A stretch of 64,000 bases of DNA, taken from NCBI GenBank assembly GCA_903857165.1, contig CAIODU010000056.1, forward strand, positions 1 through 64,000. The letters run 5' to 3'. Positions within the stretch are counted from its first letter, which is position 1; every line of letters begins with the position of its first letter. Position numbers and translations under genes: made by a program. This document shows positions 1 to 7,816 of this stretch, in pieces. The stretch comes from an uncultured Methylococcaceae bacterium (GTDB taxonomy: Bacteria > Pseudomonadota > Gammaproteobacteria > Methylococcales > Methylococcaceae). A model generated the notes under the pieces. That model saw nothing but the letters and a program-made list of their open reading frames with translations. It was not told where the DNA came from and made no database searches.

Positions 1-122
1 TCGTCCGCCGCGCCATCTGGGCTGGCAAGTATTTCGTCAACTCCAAAACCGGCAGCGACCGGTTGGAATTATCTTGCCGTGACTGGGATGCCTTGCTGGA
101 TCAACTCGCGGCGGTGGCTTAA
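1..122 (+). CDS. 3' end of a CDS cut by the window edge, unknown product
   Basis: Open frame from base 3: VRRAIWAGKYFVNSKTGSDRLELSCRDWDALLDQLAAVA*, stop at 120-122. Confidence 0.4.
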   Translation, partial: VRRAIWAGKYFVNSKTGSDRLELSCRDWDALLDQLAAVA

Positions 123-399
123 AAAGGCCAAAGTCGAGTAAATCTAATCCACCCATTTAGAGAAGGAAATGGGAGAACTCAGCGGATATTATTTGAGCAT
201 ATTGCTTGGAACTGTAATTACCACCTTGATTGGAGTGTAGCGACCAAGGATGAGTGGGTAAGAGCAAATATATTAAGTGTTTGTTGTGACTTTAGTTTAC
301 TTAAAGAAATATTTAATAATGCATTATGTAATATTCCATAACATACTAATTGATGATTGATCCGTGTAAGAAAACGCGGTAAGGCCCATTCGGGCGCAA

Positions 400-575
400 T
401 TGGGCAGTAAGGATGCGCTGAGGTACGAAGCGCATCATTCGCGTGACCTCGATTGATGCACCTCCCTCGTCGGCACATCCTACGATGTCAACGCGGCGCA
501 GCGGTGCTCTACTACATATTGCGCCAGATGAATAGGGCCGGGTGCGGCGAGGAACGAACCGCACCGTTCGCGTAA
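400..575. repeat. Island repeat family, composite copy
   Basis: GCGCATCATTCGCG..GATGCACCTCCCTCGTCGGCACATCCTACGATG; followed by TATTGCGCCAGATGAATAGGGCCGGGTGCGGCGAGGAACGAACCGCA. Confidence 0.65.
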
Positions 576-645
576 TTTCATCGCCTAACAGGAAGATATG
601 TGTTTTCAAATCTTTCGCGAGAACGCAAATCAAAAAGCCCAACCC

Positions 646-894
646 ATGACCAAACAAGAAAAACTGCTGACATCACTCCGAAACAATTCAAAAACGGTTC
701 GGTTTGATGATGCTTGCAAGATAGCCGAACGGCTAGGATTTTCACGACAGGGTGGTAAGGGTTCACATCGGACTTACGGCAGGATGGACGAGCCGTTTTT
801 GTTGAACTTCCAAAATCGTGGCGGGTACATCCTTCCATATCAGGCAAAACAATTACTAGACATGGTGGACAAATATGCAGACCTATCTAATTGA
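646..894 (+). CDS. hicA: HicA-like toxin (type II TA)
   Basis: MTKQEKLLTSLRNNSKTVRFDDACKIAERLGFSRQGGKGSHRTYGR: small dsRBD-like HicA pattern with GKGSHR; overlaps the HicB-like ORF. Confidence 0.7.
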   Translation: MTKQEKLLTSLRNNSKTVRFDDACKIAERLGFSRQGGKGSHRTYGRMDEPFLLNFQNRGGYILPYQAKQLLDMVDKYADLSN

Positions 895-1087
895 AACATT
901 TTGGAGCGAGGAAGATGATGCTTATCTTTGTATAGCACCGGATTTGCCCGGCTGTAGTGCTGCGGGCGATACCCCCTTAGAGGCAATACAGGAAATGCAG
1001 GATGCCATGGCTTCTTGGCTGCAAGCCTGCTCCAATATGGGTCGAGAGCTACCTTTTCCTCTGGCAAAACCTCGCAAAGCAGCCTAA
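875..1087 (+). CDS. hicB: HicB-like antitoxin
   Basis: MQTYLIETFWSEEDDAYLCIAPDLPGCSAAGDTPLEAIQEMQDAMASWL: HicB partial RNase H-like pattern. Confidence 0.75.
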   Translation: MQTYLIETFWSEEDDAYLCIAPDLPGCSAAGDTPLEAIQEMQDAMASWLQACSNMGRELPFPLAKPRKAA

Positions 1088-1227
1088 CAACACTATGCCG
1101 GACGGGATAGGTCATTCCGTCCGAAACGTTTTGTACCTTGCCGTACAAGTTACTCGAACACAAAACAACAGGGCCGGGATTACAAATCCCGCATCGCTTT
1201 GGTGTCAAGCAGTCAGGTTATTTAAAG

Positions 1228-1821
1228 ATGTCTTACAGTGATTTTGATTTGAAAAAAGCCAAATCCGCATTCAATTTGAATATTGTGGAAAAGGAGGATT
1301 TGTTTTCCAAAATCGAACGGGTTGAAATCAGCCCTTTATTGGCGGAGATACTGCAACAGAACGTGCCTCTGGCTTTGGCAATTGGCACGGAAAAAGCCAA
1401 TTCCGAGTTGATTATTGTCAATTTTTTCTTGGAATTAAAGCGCCGATCCCCAATCAGCTTTTTCTCCGGCATTGAGTTTACCGTAGACAAAGAAAAAGGG
1501 CTTAATGGATTTTGTGATTTTATCGTCAGCCAATCGCCGGAGCAATTGTTTCTGGATACCCCTATCCTAGCCGTTGTGGAGGCTAAAAACGAACGGATCG
1601 CGTCCGGCCTAGGCCAATGCGTTGCGGAAATGGTGGCAGCGAAAATTTATAACGAAAGGGAAGGCAAGCCTTTGCCCATCCTCTATGGCGCGGTGACCAC
1701 TGGCCAAGCTTGGAAATTCCTGCGGCTGCAAGGCGACACCGTTTACATTGACCTTGCCGACTACTACATAGACAACCCCGGCAAGATATTGGGGATATTG
1801 GTTGGCATGGTTGGACATTAG
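1228..1821 (+). CDS. Uncharacterised protein, PD-(D/E)XK nuclease-like
   Basis: ORF with ...GFCDFIVSQ...PILAVVEAKNE..: D...(E)xK-like core; start at ATG 1228. Confidence 0.5.
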   Translation: MSYSDFDLKKAKSAFNLNIVEKEDLFSKIERVEISPLLAEILQQNVPLALAIGTEKANSELIIVNFFLELKRRSPISFFSGIEFTVDKEKGLNGFCDFIVSQSPEQLFLDTPILAVVEAKNERIASGLGQCVAEMVAAKIYNEREGKPLPILYGAVTTGQAWKFLRLQGDTVYIDLADYYIDNPGKILGILVGMVGH

Positions 1822-2043
1822 TTAGAAGTTGTAGCTGGGCTAGGCGCACATTGGAAGAACCTTTCCGGTTGTGCTGTTATCCCAAGCTCCAGCTTGGGAA
1901 TCCCTATCGTACAAGCTTCTGCTTGCCAACATTATGGAAGCAGGCGCTTCCCAGACCTCATTCCCAAGCTGGAGCTTGGGAACGAGCAAATCCAGTTATT
2001 TCTAGATTTAAACTTTTTCCAAACATACTTTGAGAGTAAAAAA

Positions 2044-2478
2044 ATGAAAACATTTTTAGTTAATTCAAACACTAATCCTTCATGTAAAGGTCCACATTGT
2101 TTTGAATATATGATTCGTCATAACAAAGTTTGCGCTTATTATAGGACTTTCAATACACAAATAGACATTATCCTAAAAGGAGATTTAGTTCTTTTGTATC
2201 ATAACGATAATAGAATTATTGCTGTTGGTTTTGTTGTGAAGAGTTTTAGACCCCACGATTATCAGACAGATATGGGAATAGCTGATGAACACTGGGCTGA
2301 TGTTAACTGGATTTGGATAGCATCTTTTGATGACCAATTAAATCCTGTAAATCCTATAATTAGAACGGACTTAGATATTAAGATGGTTAACAGGACTGTT
2401 GTAAACATCACAGACCAATTAGATTACAGGAGTCTTTTTGAAGAAATTGGTAAAAGACAAATATATATGCCTAAGTAA
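2044..2478 (+). CDS. Uncharacterised protein, possibly EVE/PUA-like
   Basis: 144-aa ORF MKTFLVNSNTNPSCKGPHCFEYMIRHNKVCAYY...GDLVLLYHNDNRIIAVGFV; AT-rich relative to flanks. Confidence 0.4.
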   Translation: MKTFLVNSNTNPSCKGPHCFEYMIRHNKVCAYYRTFNTQIDIILKGDLVLLYHNDNRIIAVGFVVKSFRPHDYQTDMGIADEHWADVNWIWIASFDDQLNPVNPIIRTDLDIKMVNRTVVNITDQLDYRSLFEEIGKRQIYMPK

Positions 2479-2673: not shown

Positions 2674-2786
2674 CCGTAGGATTAAGTCCATCATTCGCGA
2701 ATGATGCGCCTCCTTCGTCGGCACATCCTACTATGTCAAGGCCGTAAGGCGCAATAGCGGCTTGCCGCGTATTGCGCCGAATGAAT
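2674..2786. repeat. Island repeat family, copy
   Basis: CGTAGGAT...CATCATTCGCGAATGATGCGCCTCCTTCGTCGGCACATCCTAC plus GCGCAATAGCGGCTTGCCGCGTATTGCGCC. Confidence 0.75.
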
Positions 2787-2834
2787 AAAAAGAGCAAAAT
2801 CCATGAAACCCCGGCATTGTTTCTCTGCCCACCC

Positions 2835-2930
2835 GCCTAACCCGCCGTACCAGCCGACCCGCGCCCATCGCTTGCCGTGTTCGGTTTGGGTTCCGTGGCG
2901 GGCGCGGTCGGCTGAGCGGGGTCGTTAGGC
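2835..2930 (+). other. Integron attC-like recombination site
   Basis: GCCTAAC (RYYYAAC) at 2835-2841 and GTTAGGC (GTTRRRY) at 2924-2930; inner arms CAGCCGACC(C)GCGCCC / GGGCGCGGTCGGCTG pair with one extrahelical base. Confidence 0.75.
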
Positions 2931-3003: not shown

Positions 3004-3585
3004 ATGTTATTAATTTTAAAAAACGGCAGAATTATTGACAGCAAAATCAAAAACGCGATTAGTCCAATAATAGAACATGATGACATGGTAAAAGTATCTG
3101 GAATTATCGTTCATCAAACCGGAGGATCAACTGCTAATTCTTCTCTTTCTAGTTATAAAAATAAAGGAGCAAACGGCGCACATTTTTTAATTGACAAAGA
3201 TGGAACAATTTATCAGACCGCTTCTATATACAAACAAACATGGCATGTTGGTAAATTAAAAAGTCGTTGTGTGTTGGAAAAAAGATGTTCAAAAGCAGAG
3301 ACAGAACGGAATAAAACTTACAATCCAAGTAAAGAAAACGAGCGGGAACAAAAAAAGTCCCCTCCCGACAGATTTCCATCTAACAAAGATAGTATTGGCA
3401 TTGAATTAGTTGGCGAAACTGATAAAGATGATAATTATGTTGCCGTAACTCATGAGCAAAACAAATCGCTAAAATGGCTGATTGAGCAATTAGAGTTAAC
3501 TTTATTTATCCCTTTTACTGAAGTATTTAGGCATCCAACAGTATCCAGAAAGAATCCAACTGAAGCGAATACAGCCCAATGGTAA
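3004..3585 (+). CDS. N-acetylmuramoyl-L-alanine amidase (Amidase_2/PGRP-like)
   Basis: Catalytic-type motifs IVHQTGG, GANGAHFLIDKDGTIYQ, TWHVG, SIGIELVGE, RHPTVSRKNPTEA; no signal peptide evident. Confidence 0.75.
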   Translation: MLLILKNGRIIDSKIKNAISPIIEHDDMVKVSGIIVHQTGGSTANSSLSSYKNKGANGAHFLIDKDGTIYQTASIYKQTWHVGKLKSRCVLEKRCSKAETERNKTYNPSKENEREQKKSPPDRFPSNKDSIGIELVGETDKDDNYVAVTHEQNKSLKWLIEQLELTLFIPFTEVFRHPTVSRKNPTEANTAQW

Positions 3586-4025
3586 CGTATTTACGGCTTT
3601 GGGTAGTTACAACACTCCTTTTATTTTGGAATATTAGCTATGCGAAAACCACTTGCACTACAGCAACGGAATATCAACCAGAATTATGTCGAGTTAAGTT
3701 GCCACAAATTGTATCTGTAGATATCGAAGAAAATGGTACAACCTCAAAAGCCGATAATGAAAAATCAAATTGTTCTAAATTTAAGCTTACTGTGATTGGT
3801 GTGCGGCGTTATTTTTCTAGGGCATTGGAGATAAAAAATGCTGAAGATGCTCAGCATACACTTGACTGGTTACCCTGCTATGCAAGTGGCACTATGCGTT
3901 TTGCGGATAACAGAAAAATTCATTGGACTATTTATCAAAGTCAGACGGGGAAGCTCGTTTTGGATAACAAAAAAGAGATATTTTTTTATTGTCCTGATTG
4001 TAAATTTGCACCTTTTTTGTATTGA
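3579..4025 (+). CDS. Secreted/periplasmic small Cys-containing protein, putative immunity partner
   Basis: ATGGTAA overlap with the upstream amidase stop; N-terminal signal MVTYLRLWVVTTLLLFWNISYAKTTC; ends FFYCPDCKFAPFLY. Confidence 0.55.
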   Translation: MVTYLRLWVVTTLLLFWNISYAKTTCTTATEYQPELCRVKLPQIVSVDIEENGTTSKADNEKSNCSKFKLTVIGVRRYFSRALEIKNAEDAQHTLDWLPCYASGTMRFADNRKIHWTIYQSQTGKLVLDNKKEIFFYCPDCKFAPFLY

Positions 4026-4040
4026 TACTAAAGCGATAAA

Positions 4041-4114
4041 GGGCCGTAGGATGGGCTGAGCTTGCGAAGCCCATCAATCGCGAATGATGCGCCTCCTTCG
4101 TCGGCACATCCTAC
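4041..4114. repeat. Island repeat family, copy
   Basis: GGGCCGTAGGATGGGCTGAGCTTGCGAAGCCCATCAATCGCGAATGATGCGCCTCCTTCGTCGGCACATCCTACGAT. Confidence 0.8.
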
Positions 4115-4213
4115 GATGATTGCAAGCAAGTTTTTTATCAGGGTGTTCACATGACGGAAACCTTATGCTCGTCCAGCATTGACAGATTGTAGTCTTGCGG
4201 CTACAGTTCATCT

Positions 4214-4504
4214 ATGATTGAAATCCGCAAGACTGAGGCATACGCTCTGTGGCTGGATGGACTGCGCGACCTAAATGCAAGAGCGCGCATTCAGGTTCGT
4301 GTTGAACGATTGGCTGCGGGTAATGCAGGAGATGTTAAACCTGTAGGCGAAGGTGTATCCGAGTTGCGAATCGATTACGGTCCTGGTTATCGGGTGTACT
4401 TCACAATGCGTGGTCGCGAGTTGGTGATTCTGCTGGCGGGTGGCGATAAGCGAACACAAGCCACGGACATAAAAACTGCCCTGCGCCTCGCACGCAATCT
4501 GTAA
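4214..4504 (+). CDS. RelE/ParE-superfamily addiction module killer protein (HigB-like)
   Basis: MIEIRKTEAYALWLDGLRDLNARARIQVRVERLAAGNAGDVKPVGEGVSELRIDYGPGYRVYF.. typical motif. Confidence 0.85.
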   Translation: MIEIRKTEAYALWLDGLRDLNARARIQVRVERLAAGNAGDVKPVGEGVSELRIDYGPGYRVYFTMRGRELVILLAGGDKRTQATDIKTALRLARNL

Positions 4505-4513
4505 TAACACATT

Positions 4514-4858
4514 ATGAGCAAAACAGTTACCACTCGTTATGATGTTGCCGAACACCTCCGAACCCCGGAAGAAATGGCCGCCTATTTGGATGCTTGCTTT
4601 GAAGAAGCAGATGGCAATTCAGCATTCATTGCCAAAGCGCTTGGCGACATCGCTCGTGCTAAAGGCATGTCGCAGATCGCCCGCGATGCTGGGCTATCTC
4701 GCGAAAGTCTTTACAAAGCCCTCTCCGGTGAGCGTAGCCCCGACTTCGATACTATTCTAAAAGTAGTGAATGCACTAGGCTTGAAGTTGCACACCGAAGC
4801 CAGAGTGGTAATGCGCAATAGCGGCGGCTTGCCTCGTATTGCGTCGGAAGGGCCGTAG
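4514..4858 (+). CDS. Addiction module antidote protein (HTH)
   Basis: AEHLRTPEEMAAYLDACFEEADGN..FIAKALGDIARAKGMSQIARDAGLSRESLYKALSGE; follows the RelE-like gene. Confidence 0.85.
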   Translation: MSKTVTTRYDVAEHLRTPEEMAAYLDACFEEADGNSAFIAKALGDIARAKGMSQIARDAGLSRESLYKALSGERSPDFDTILKVVNALGLKLHTEARVVMRNSGGLPRIASEGP

Positions 4859-4923
4859 GATGGGCTGAGCTTGCGAAGCCCATCATTCGCGAATGATGCG
4901 CATCCTTCGCCGGCACATCCTAT
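4813..4923. repeat. Island repeat family, copy overlapping the 3' end of a HigA-family gene
   Basis: GCGCAATAGCGGCGGCTTGCCTCGTATTGCGTCGGAAGGGCCGTAGGATGGGCTGAGCTTGCGAAGCCCATCATTCGCGAATGATGCGC. Confidence 0.8.
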
Positions 4924-4994
4924 GCGAGTCTCTTAATATGGCCTAACATTCCGTTCCAGCGCGCGCGCCCGCGCCACGAAGCGGCTTCGTGTTT

Positions 4995-5093
4995 TCAAGA
5001 CAACACAGCATTCGCATAAACGATCAATTCCGTGTGTGCTTTGTATGGACTAGCGAGGGGCCAAAAGATGTCGAGATTGTTGATTACCATTAA
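4995..5093 (+). pseudogene. higB: higB toxin 3' remnant
   Basis: In-frame SRQHSIRINDQFRVCFVWTSEGPKDVEIVDYH*, the conserved HigB C-terminus, with no N-terminus. Confidence 0.8.
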
Positions 5094-5105: not shown

Positions 5106-5432
5106 ATGAGCAATACAAACAAGCTTCCGCCAGTTACTCCAGGTGAAATTCTACTTGAAGAACTCCTGAAACCGATGGGAATTTCTCAATATCGACTGGC
5201 TAAGGAAATTGGCGTTCCCGCTCAACGAATTAGTGAAATTGTCGCTGGTCGTCGTGCAATTACGGCCGACACTGATTTAAGGTTGTGCCGATTTTTTGGG
5301 CTATCCGAAGGATGGTGGCTACGCGGTCAGGCGCGTCATGATACCGAATGCGCCAAGGATGTTCTAGCAGCAACATTGTCCAAAATTAGGCCGTGGACGG
5401 AAGTGATCACCAATATCGCCGCCCATTCCTAA
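5106..5432 (+). CDS. higA: HigA-family antitoxin (XRE)
   Basis: LPPVTPGEILLEELLKPMGISQYRLAKEIGVPAQRISEIVAGRRAITADTDLRLCRFFGLSEGWWL. Confidence 0.9.
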   Translation: MSNTNKLPPVTPGEILLEELLKPMGISQYRLAKEIGVPAQRISEIVAGRRAITADTDLRLCRFFGLSEGWWLRGQARHDTECAKDVLAATLSKIRPWTEVITNIAAHS

Positions 5433-5581
5433 CCCACGCTCAAGTTTGCCCCTTGCTGAGTATTGCGCCATATGGAAAAGCAAAGAGCATTAGGGCCGCA
5501 GGACGCAATGCGAAGCAATTGTACGGACTCTGTCCATCATGCTATTTGCAAAACATACGGCATTGCCATATTATGGGACTA

Positions 5582-5905
5582 ATGTTTACTCTCATCGAAT
5601 CCCCAATTTTTTCAAAGCGTTGGCCTGACTACTGGTCAGAAGAAGAACGTGGAAAATTTGCTGCTTGGCTTGCGCAGAACCCGGAAGTGGGAGATGTGGT
5701 TCTTGGATCAGGCGGGGTTCGCAAAGTCCGCTGGCCGAGCGAAGGTCAAGGAAAACGCGGGGGCGTAAGAGTCATCTACTATAACCAGATTGGCAAAAAT
5801 TTGATTTGGCTTCTGACCGTCTATGCCAAATCCCACCAAAAGAATGCCCCATCGCATATTCTCAAAGCACTGAAAGAGGAGCTTATAAATGATAATAATG
5901 AATGA
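5582..5905 (+). CDS. RelE/HigB2-like toxin
   Basis: MFTLIESPIFSKRWPDYWSEEERGKFAAWLAQNPEVGDVVLGSGGVRKVRWPSEGQGKRGGVRVIYY..IWLLTVYAKS. Confidence 0.85.
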   Translation: MFTLIESPIFSKRWPDYWSEEERGKFAAWLAQNPEVGDVVLGSGGVRKVRWPSEGQGKRGGVRVIYYNQIGKNLIWLLTVYAKSHQKNAPSHILKALKEELINDNNE

Positions 5906-6206
5906 AAATGAGCTGGTTGAGCGCGATCTAAAACGCGATGTGTGGCAAGAAGCCTTAGATGCTGTGAGAAGTATTAAAGCAGGGAATGTCGGCACTATCC
6001 ACGCAATTGATATTAAACCTTTTCCCGTTGCCGAAGCTAGAAACAAAACCGGGCTTTCCCAAGCAAAGTTCGCGGAGCTTCTCGGCGTATCGGTCAGAAC
6101 CCTGCAAGATTGGGAGCAAGGCCGAAGGCAACCAAGCCGGGCAGCCGCATCTTTGATTCAAATTGCAAAAAAACGTCCAGACGTGCTCAATGAGATTTTT
6201 GGGTAA
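5889..6206 (+). CDS. XRE-family antitoxin (HigA2/NadS-like)
   Basis: RNKTGLSQAKFAELLGVSVRTLQDWEQGRRQPSRAAASLIQIAKKRPDVL; overlaps the toxin gene. Confidence 0.85.
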   Translation: MIIMNENELVERDLKRDVWQEALDAVRSIKAGNVGTIHAIDIKPFPVAEARNKTGLSQAKFAELLGVSVRTLQDWEQGRRQPSRAAASLIQIAKKRPDVLNEIFG

Positions 6207-6510: not shown

Positions 6511-7311
6511 TTAGAAACTATGCTCCTCCGCCGGGAATCTTCCGCTGCGGACAGCCAGTGCATAGGCGCGTATGGCAGAGGGTATGTCGCCCGCTTCCGC
6601 CATGAAATCCTTCACAAAGCGGGGGCGTTTGCCTTCCCCCAAGCCCAGCAGGTCATGCAGCACCAAGACCTGCCCGTCACAACCCACTCCCGCACCGATG
6701 CCAATCACGGGAATGTCCAGCGCACTGGCTATTTCATCCCCCAATGCGGCCGGTATGCACTCGACAACCAGCAGGCCGGCACCGGCCTCTTGCAATAGGA
6801 GCGCGTCCTCCAGCAGGGCTTGTGCGGCACGATCCTCCCGACCCTGCACTAGGTAACCGCCAAGGTGATTAATGGACTGTGGCAACAGCCCAAGATGCCC
6901 ACAAACCGGGATGCCCTGCCCTACCAAGAAGCGCACGATGTCCGCCCGGTTGCGCCCGCCCTCCAGCTTGACCATCTGCGCATGTCCTTCGCGAATCAAG
7001 CGCGCAGCGTTTTCGGCTGCCCGTTCCGGTGTCGGATAGGTCATGAAGGGCAAGTCGGCCAGCAACAACGCCCGCTGGGTCCCTCTCGCCACGCAGCGCG
7101 TGTGGTAGACCATGTCATCCAGAGACGTGGGCAACGTGGTCTCATGGCCCTGAATCACCATGCCGAGCGAGTCGCCGACCAAGATGACATCCACCCCGGC
7201 ATTGTCCAGCGTGTGGGCGAAAATTGCGTCATAGGCGGTCAACACGACGATTTTCTCACCGCGTGACTTCATGGCCGCCAACTCAGGCACGGTGATTGCC
7301 GGGCTAGTCAT
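6511..7311 (-). CDS. panB: 3-methyl-2-oxobutanoate hydroxymethyltransferase
   Basis: MTSPAITVPELAAMKSRGEKIVVLTAYDAIFAHTLDNAGVDVILVGDSLGMVIQGHETTLPTSLDDMVYHTR. Confidence 0.97.
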   Translation of the reverse strand: MTSPAITVPELAAMKSRGEKIVVLTAYDAIFAHTLDNAGVDVILVGDSLGMVIQGHETTLPTSLDDMVYHTRCVARGTQRALLLADLPFMTYPTPERAAENAARLIREGHAQMVKLEGGRNRADIVRFLVGQGIPVCGHLGLLPQSINHLGGYLVQGREDRAAQALLEDALLLQEAGAGLLVVECIPAALGDEIASALDIPVIGIGAGVGCDGQVLVLHDLLGLGEGKRPRFVKDFMAEAGDIPSAIRAYALAVRSGRFPAEEHSF

Positions 7312-7816
7312 GTCCAATTGCCTCCAGGCCACGCCGGGGGCATGCCGAGACCAGATCGCTTAATATCCCCATGCCGGGAATTGCCAGATGGGGCGGGGCG
7401 ATTTCCGCCAATGGATACAGCACAAACTCGCGTCCGGCGATGCCTGCATGGGGTATGGTAAGCCACTGGTCGGAGATTTGTTCGAGACCGAACATCAATA
7501 AATCCAAATCCAATGTGCGCGGCCCCCAGCGCTGATCGGTGCGGACCCTTCCGTGAGACAACTCGATCATTTGCAAAGCCTTCAACAGATCACGGGGGGC
7601 AAGGGAGGTTTCCACCGCCATCACCGCGTTGACAAAATCGGGCTGGTCGACAGGACCCATCGGCGCACTGCGATAGAGGCTGGAAAAGGCAAGCTCGCGG
7701 ACTCCAGGCACTGCCTCAATCGCCTTGCGTGCCGAACCTAGCAATTCCAGCGTATTCTCCAGATTGCCGCCCAAGCCAATGTAAGCGATGGTGGACAGGT
7801 TGGATTCAGGTGTCAT
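7304..7816 (-). CDS. folK: 2-amino-4-hydroxy-6-hydroxymethyldihydropteridine pyrophosphokinase
   Basis: YIGLGGNLENT..SSLYRSAPMGPVDQPDFVNAV..RWGPRTLDLDLLMFG. Confidence 0.97.
   Translation of the reverse strand: MTPESNLSTIAYIGLGGNLENTLELLGSARKAIEAVPGVRELAFSSLYRSAPMGPVDQPDFVNAVMAVETSLAPRDLLKALQMIELSHGRVRTDQRWGPRTLDLDLLMFGLEQISDQWLTIPHAGIAGREFVLYPLAEIAPPHLAIPGMGILSDLVSACPRRGLEAIGHD

Follow-up and report, generated by a model that had tools for sequence, protein, structure and literature searches.

Does the 96-nt element near the left end of contig C56, which starts with GCCTAAC and ends with GTTAGGC, belong to an integron, and if so, where is the integrase that would act on it? The window considered here is the whole stretch that was analysed, 64,000 nt (C56:1-64000) of a 4.9 Mb genome assembled in 428 contigs. 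A sequence-only reading had taken the element for an attC-like site and the first 6.4 kb for a decayed or sedentary cassette array, and this integron reading turned out to be essentially right. We put the probability at about 95% that 2835-2930 is an attC of a large chromosomal integron, lying in a partly decayed array that ends at or before a gene which we take to be panB (6511-7332).

The 96-nt element at 2835-2930

The element occupies exactly window positions 2835-2930 on the + strand, with the two ends that had been described for it. They form an R'' box (consensus RYYYAAC) and an R' box (GTTRRRY) that are perfectly complementary, as the assignment to the attC consensus demands. By itself, GCCTAAC occurs 8 times in the window against 5.0 expected, which is not significant. 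The inner arms, CAGCCGACC[C]GCGCCC and GGGCGCGGTCGGCTG, were also found to be paired except for one C, as claimed. This unpaired C is displaced relative to the consensus of the sibling sites, in which an A of the L'' arm, three positions earlier, is the extrahelical base (CCAGCCG[A]CCCGCG / CGCGGGCGGCTG). In the window attC this A has a T opposite it on the L' side and is paired, and the bulge shifts to the C three positions further in. When the site without its first base (2836-2930) was folded as single-stranded DNA, the energy was -30.6 kcal/mol, about 9-10 kcal/mol below that of dinucleotide shuffles (z = -3.7 on the + strand and -3.4 on the - strand; 0/200 shuffles equally stable).

An attC covariance model, R2, was built from 23 aligned attCs adjoining intI in other species, the source integrons coming from GTDB genomes scanned with the integrase of the present genome; the training set held no sequence from this genus. 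At known integrons, 126/128 R2 hits (some of them training sites) fell on the expected strand. With filters off, R2 gave one clear match in the 64-kb window, 2835-2930 on the + strand (29.9 bits, E 2.6e-6), compared with 12.3 bits on the opposite strand and at most 10.8 bits elsewhere in the window. The covariance check that the sequence-only reading had proposed thus returned an attC match on the expected strand. In the genome-wide search the same site scored 30.0 bits (E 2e-4) and was the weakest of the clear sites. No Rfam family matched the site or the region, and a second complete attC was not found in the 64-kb window.

The left 6.4 kb and the rest of the genome

The features of the left part of the window are as follows.

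3..139, strand not applicable: contig-end repeat whose 137 bp recur unchanged at the start of C239 (blastn)
534..589, +: probable attC remnant, a second-type flank GTGCGG..GAACGAACCGCACCGTTCGCGTAA-N6 and R'' GCCTAAC at 583, the rest lost
598..1087, +: HicA-like/HicB-like toxin-antitoxin cassette (HicB_lk_antitox E 2.7e-9; HicA below cut-off only)
1138..1821, +: uncharacterised ORF, no family match
2044..2478, +: uncharacterised ORF, closest gene upstream of the attC, no family match
2684..2788, +: repeat and hairpin GCGCAATAGCGGCTTGCCGCGTATTGCGC, recurring upstream of attCs in this genome
2789..2834, +: pre-attC block AAAGAGCAAAATCCATGAAACCCCGGCATTGTTTCTCTGCCCACCC, directly 5' of R''
2835..2930, +: attC site (covariance match, fold, R'' GCCTAAC / R' GTTAGGC)
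3004..3585, +: N-acetylmuramoyl-L-alanine amidase (Amidase_2; Pfam E 1e-17)
3579..4025, +: uncharacterised ORF (open reading frame)
4214..4858, +: cassette-borne pair of RelE/ParE-type toxin and HI1420-type antidote (TIGR02683 E 5.8e-39, TIGR02684 E 4.2e-36)
4941..4997, +: 5' half attC (R'' and L'' arm, without the 3' half), 81-86% identity over 56-57 bp to attCs of C239, C354 and C192
5106-5432, +: HigA-type antitoxin
5393-5905, +: RelE-like ORF
5889-6206, +: MqsA/HTH-like antitoxin
6511..7332, -: panB-like gene, right border of the array, with matches in 39/41 relatives' genomes searched

The array is cut on its left by an assembly break: window base 1 is the first base of the contig and falls within a repeat. 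The gene content of the first 6.4 kb (toxin-antitoxin genes, an amidase and ORFs) is typical of cassettes, and two of the cassettes have relatives that carry attC sequence. The HicAB stretch 625-1090 shares 87% nucleotide identity with an intact cassette of HicAB, block and attC in a congener (G003, L212), the attC being lost in the window and intact in the congener. The RelE/antidote stretch 4141-4848 likewise has a counterpart on C213, at 90% identity, with the hairpin, the pre-attC block and a truncated R'' lying after it. The flank of the probable R'' remnant at 583 also precedes intact attCs on C272, C195, C276 and C239. With the half attC at 4941-4997, the probable R'' remnant at 583, and HicAB and RelE/antidote cassettes related to attC-bearing copies, 0-6.4 kb can fairly be called a "decayed cassette array", and that part of the sequence-only reading holds. 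Beside panB, no attC was found in ten relatives, and among the genomes tested an array at this position is therefore peculiar to this one. Synteny was compared to see whether the window is the distal end of the intI array: left of panB, the sequence differs from relative to relative, and the genes flanking intI do not lie beside panB.

Elsewhere in the genome, the integrase gene of the integron lies on contig C281; its product is full-length (TIGR02249, 472.6 bits; cut-off 265), matches the V. cholerae IntI4 structure (2a3v, E 7e-91) over its length and retains the catalytic R..K..H-x-x-R..H..Y residues as well as the IntI-specific insert. Beside this intI, downstream in array orientation, are three attCs of the sequence family of the window attC; the cassette genes adjoining intI are oriented divergently, the first of them being a cold-shock-domain gene, and a candidate attI, GGTTAGGC, is located at L009 15847-15854. 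The sibling attCs beside intI and their cassette genes share the orientation of the window attC and the + strand genes, in agreement with what had been proposed. Genome-wide, R2 (E<=1e-3) identified 44 attCs on 20 contigs. Multiple attCs with unrelated cassettes, by which an integron is recognised, are thus found here (44 sites, with divergence downstream). The sequence-only reading had staked itself on a covariance match and on an intI or other attC sites in the genome, and all of these are present. Separately, C420 (L240, about 208-321) carries a fragment resembling the IntI N-terminus, split by a REP-like repeat, which appears to be a second, broken intI copy.

Each of the six congeneric genomes also has attCs (14-89 per genome), and at least one attC was found in 29/38 genomes of the family; the closest IntI outside the genus is that of Candidatus Methylumidiphilus alinenensis, of the order Methylococcales (69%). 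Of the 38 family genomes, 25 contain PmoA/AmoA-family genes, three of the 25 being congeners, and no match was found in the present assembly, which may be an assembly gap. The host is therefore described as a member of a methanotroph-containing family and no more.

Established integron biology provides a likely course of events at this site. The bottom strand of the window attC would fold into a hairpin and be bound in that form by the C281 integrase, and recombination with attI or with other attCs would take place at G|TTAGGC; the cassette upstream of the attC could then be excised or captured. The window array may be physically linked to the intI contig.

The sequence directly upstream of the attC sites

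The resemblance between the window attC and its siblings extends about 95 nt beyond the 5' start of the site, to about 2737, and includes a conserved block of 46 nt. The block is common to 25/46 attCs of this genome and 83/123 attCs of the genus, across different cassettes and attC subtypes, counting sites that matched the consensus better than any control position (0/116 controls); the loci are window 2789-2834, L009, L097, L127 and L203-L222. Column identity is 0.37-0.57 within 50 nt before the attC, falling off sharply at about -50; after the attC it is about 0.26, beginning with the very first base. The sequence before GTTAGGC is common to the sites and the sequence after it differs, as expected for cassette junctions. 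Nothing of the kind was detected in 17 other arrays; L074, which has repeated cassettes, is conserved on both sides, and L051 is marginal. In a second genus of the family (G022, G013; L235), a block of unrelated sequence occupies the same position. The block was absent from the viral contigs (exact pattern) and plasmids searched.

Several simple accounts of the block were rejected. A coding sequence is not indicated, as substitutions lack a clear 3-base periodicity (0.139/0.103/0.155), and RNAalifold predicted no RNA or DNA structure in which the block pairs with the attC. It does not behave as an independent repeat either, since copies without a complete attC mostly enter truncated or mutated attCs; the remaining such copies break off within the block. 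In a congener, a HicAB gene is followed by an apparent old attC start and then by block and attC. This arrangement, a half attC followed by block and attC, was rejected as a general pattern (5/83 cases, weak). Tentatively, comparison of these sequences raises the possibility that the block is a new cis-acting part of the cassette, by which "block + attC" might be joined to new genes or by which recombination or transcription might be controlled, although we would sooner bet against this proposal than for it. A description of the block was not found in the open-access literature searched, which is not proof of novelty.

Other repeats accompany these sites. A hairpin repeat, GCGCAATAGCGG..CCGCGTATTGCGCC (window 2737-2788 and 4808-4840), is often located 5' of the block, and hairpin and/or block were matched at about 40 places in the present genome. 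A REP-like repeat, GGGCCGTAGGATGGGCTGAGCTTGCGAAGCCCATCATTCGCGAATGATGCGCCTCCTTCGTCGGCACATCCTA, occurs at window 402-496, 2684-2731, 4040-4123 and 4849-4922 and on other attC contigs. In addition, a 22-nt inverted repeat, TCCCAAGCTCCAGCTTGGGAAT / ATTCCCAAGCTGGAGCTTGGGA, 100% complementary, lies at window 1880-1982, with relatives on C86, C354, C53 and C14. A chimeric site lies on C89 (L128 599-865), where a 5'-half attC and its block run directly into another block type and a complete attC.

Alternative explanations and known systems

With REP-like repeats abundant in the region, and GCCTAAC not a rare sequence, one might suppose that the element is a chance or unrelated inverted repeat such as a terminator, a REP element or a MITE end. 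This is refuted by the intI, the R2 match in the window and the genome-wide attCs; with the strand asymmetry of the covariance match, 43 sibling sites in the genome and a region without Rfam match, we regard its probability as negligible. A harder question is whether the attC is dead, an inert fossil preserved by drift. Its score is the lowest among the clear sites of the genome, its usual extrahelical base is paired, and neighbouring attCs are truncated or reduced to an R box, but both R boxes are perfect, the arms are strongly paired, and its L' variant CGCGGTCGGCTG is also present in one otherwise intact attC on C104. On balance we doubt that the site is dead, while giving the idea appreciable weight.

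Opinion could go either way on whether the window array is a CALIN (a cluster of attCs lacking an integrase) that formed or was stranded apart from the intI locus and can now be reached by the integrase in trans only, and we give this even odds. The attCs are scattered over 20 contigs, three of which (C33, C276 and C56) show attCs and then many kb without any, and the relatives lack arrays flanking panB. However, an assembly of 428 contigs, broken at repeats, is compatible with one array or with several, and the intI-linked contig has attC families in common with other contigs. An attC of a large chromosomal integron remains our reading of 2835-2930.

As an integron the find is ordinary, and it is the pre-attC block that merits further study. 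A large integron is now documented in a genus of a methanotroph-containing family, with attCs in every genome examined, and the block, if confirmed, would offer a handle on how genes acquire an attC and on why the attCs of one genome are so alike. Earlier work on Methylococcales described attC models specific to the order, together with complete integrons (Ghaly et al. 2021, PMC8352920; PMC8527097). The 14-89 attCs per genome found here exceed the few to about ten reported in Methylococcus, and no upstream block was found in the searched text on Methylococcales attCs and Methylococcus integrons (PMC8352920; PMC8527097).

The system resembles the sedentary chromosomal integrons of Gammaproteobacteria, of the V. 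cholerae superintegron type, in its intI, many cassettes and homogeneous attCs, and further in its toxin-antitoxin cassettes and single gene orientation. It differs from them in that its attCs sit on 20 different contigs of a fragmented assembly, a single array being unproven, and in that most attCs are accompanied by an upstream block that is absent in the control arrays (Vibrio not among them). The window also resembles a CALIN, having an attC and remnants but no intI; unlike a CALIN, however, it belongs to a genome that does encode the cognate intI.
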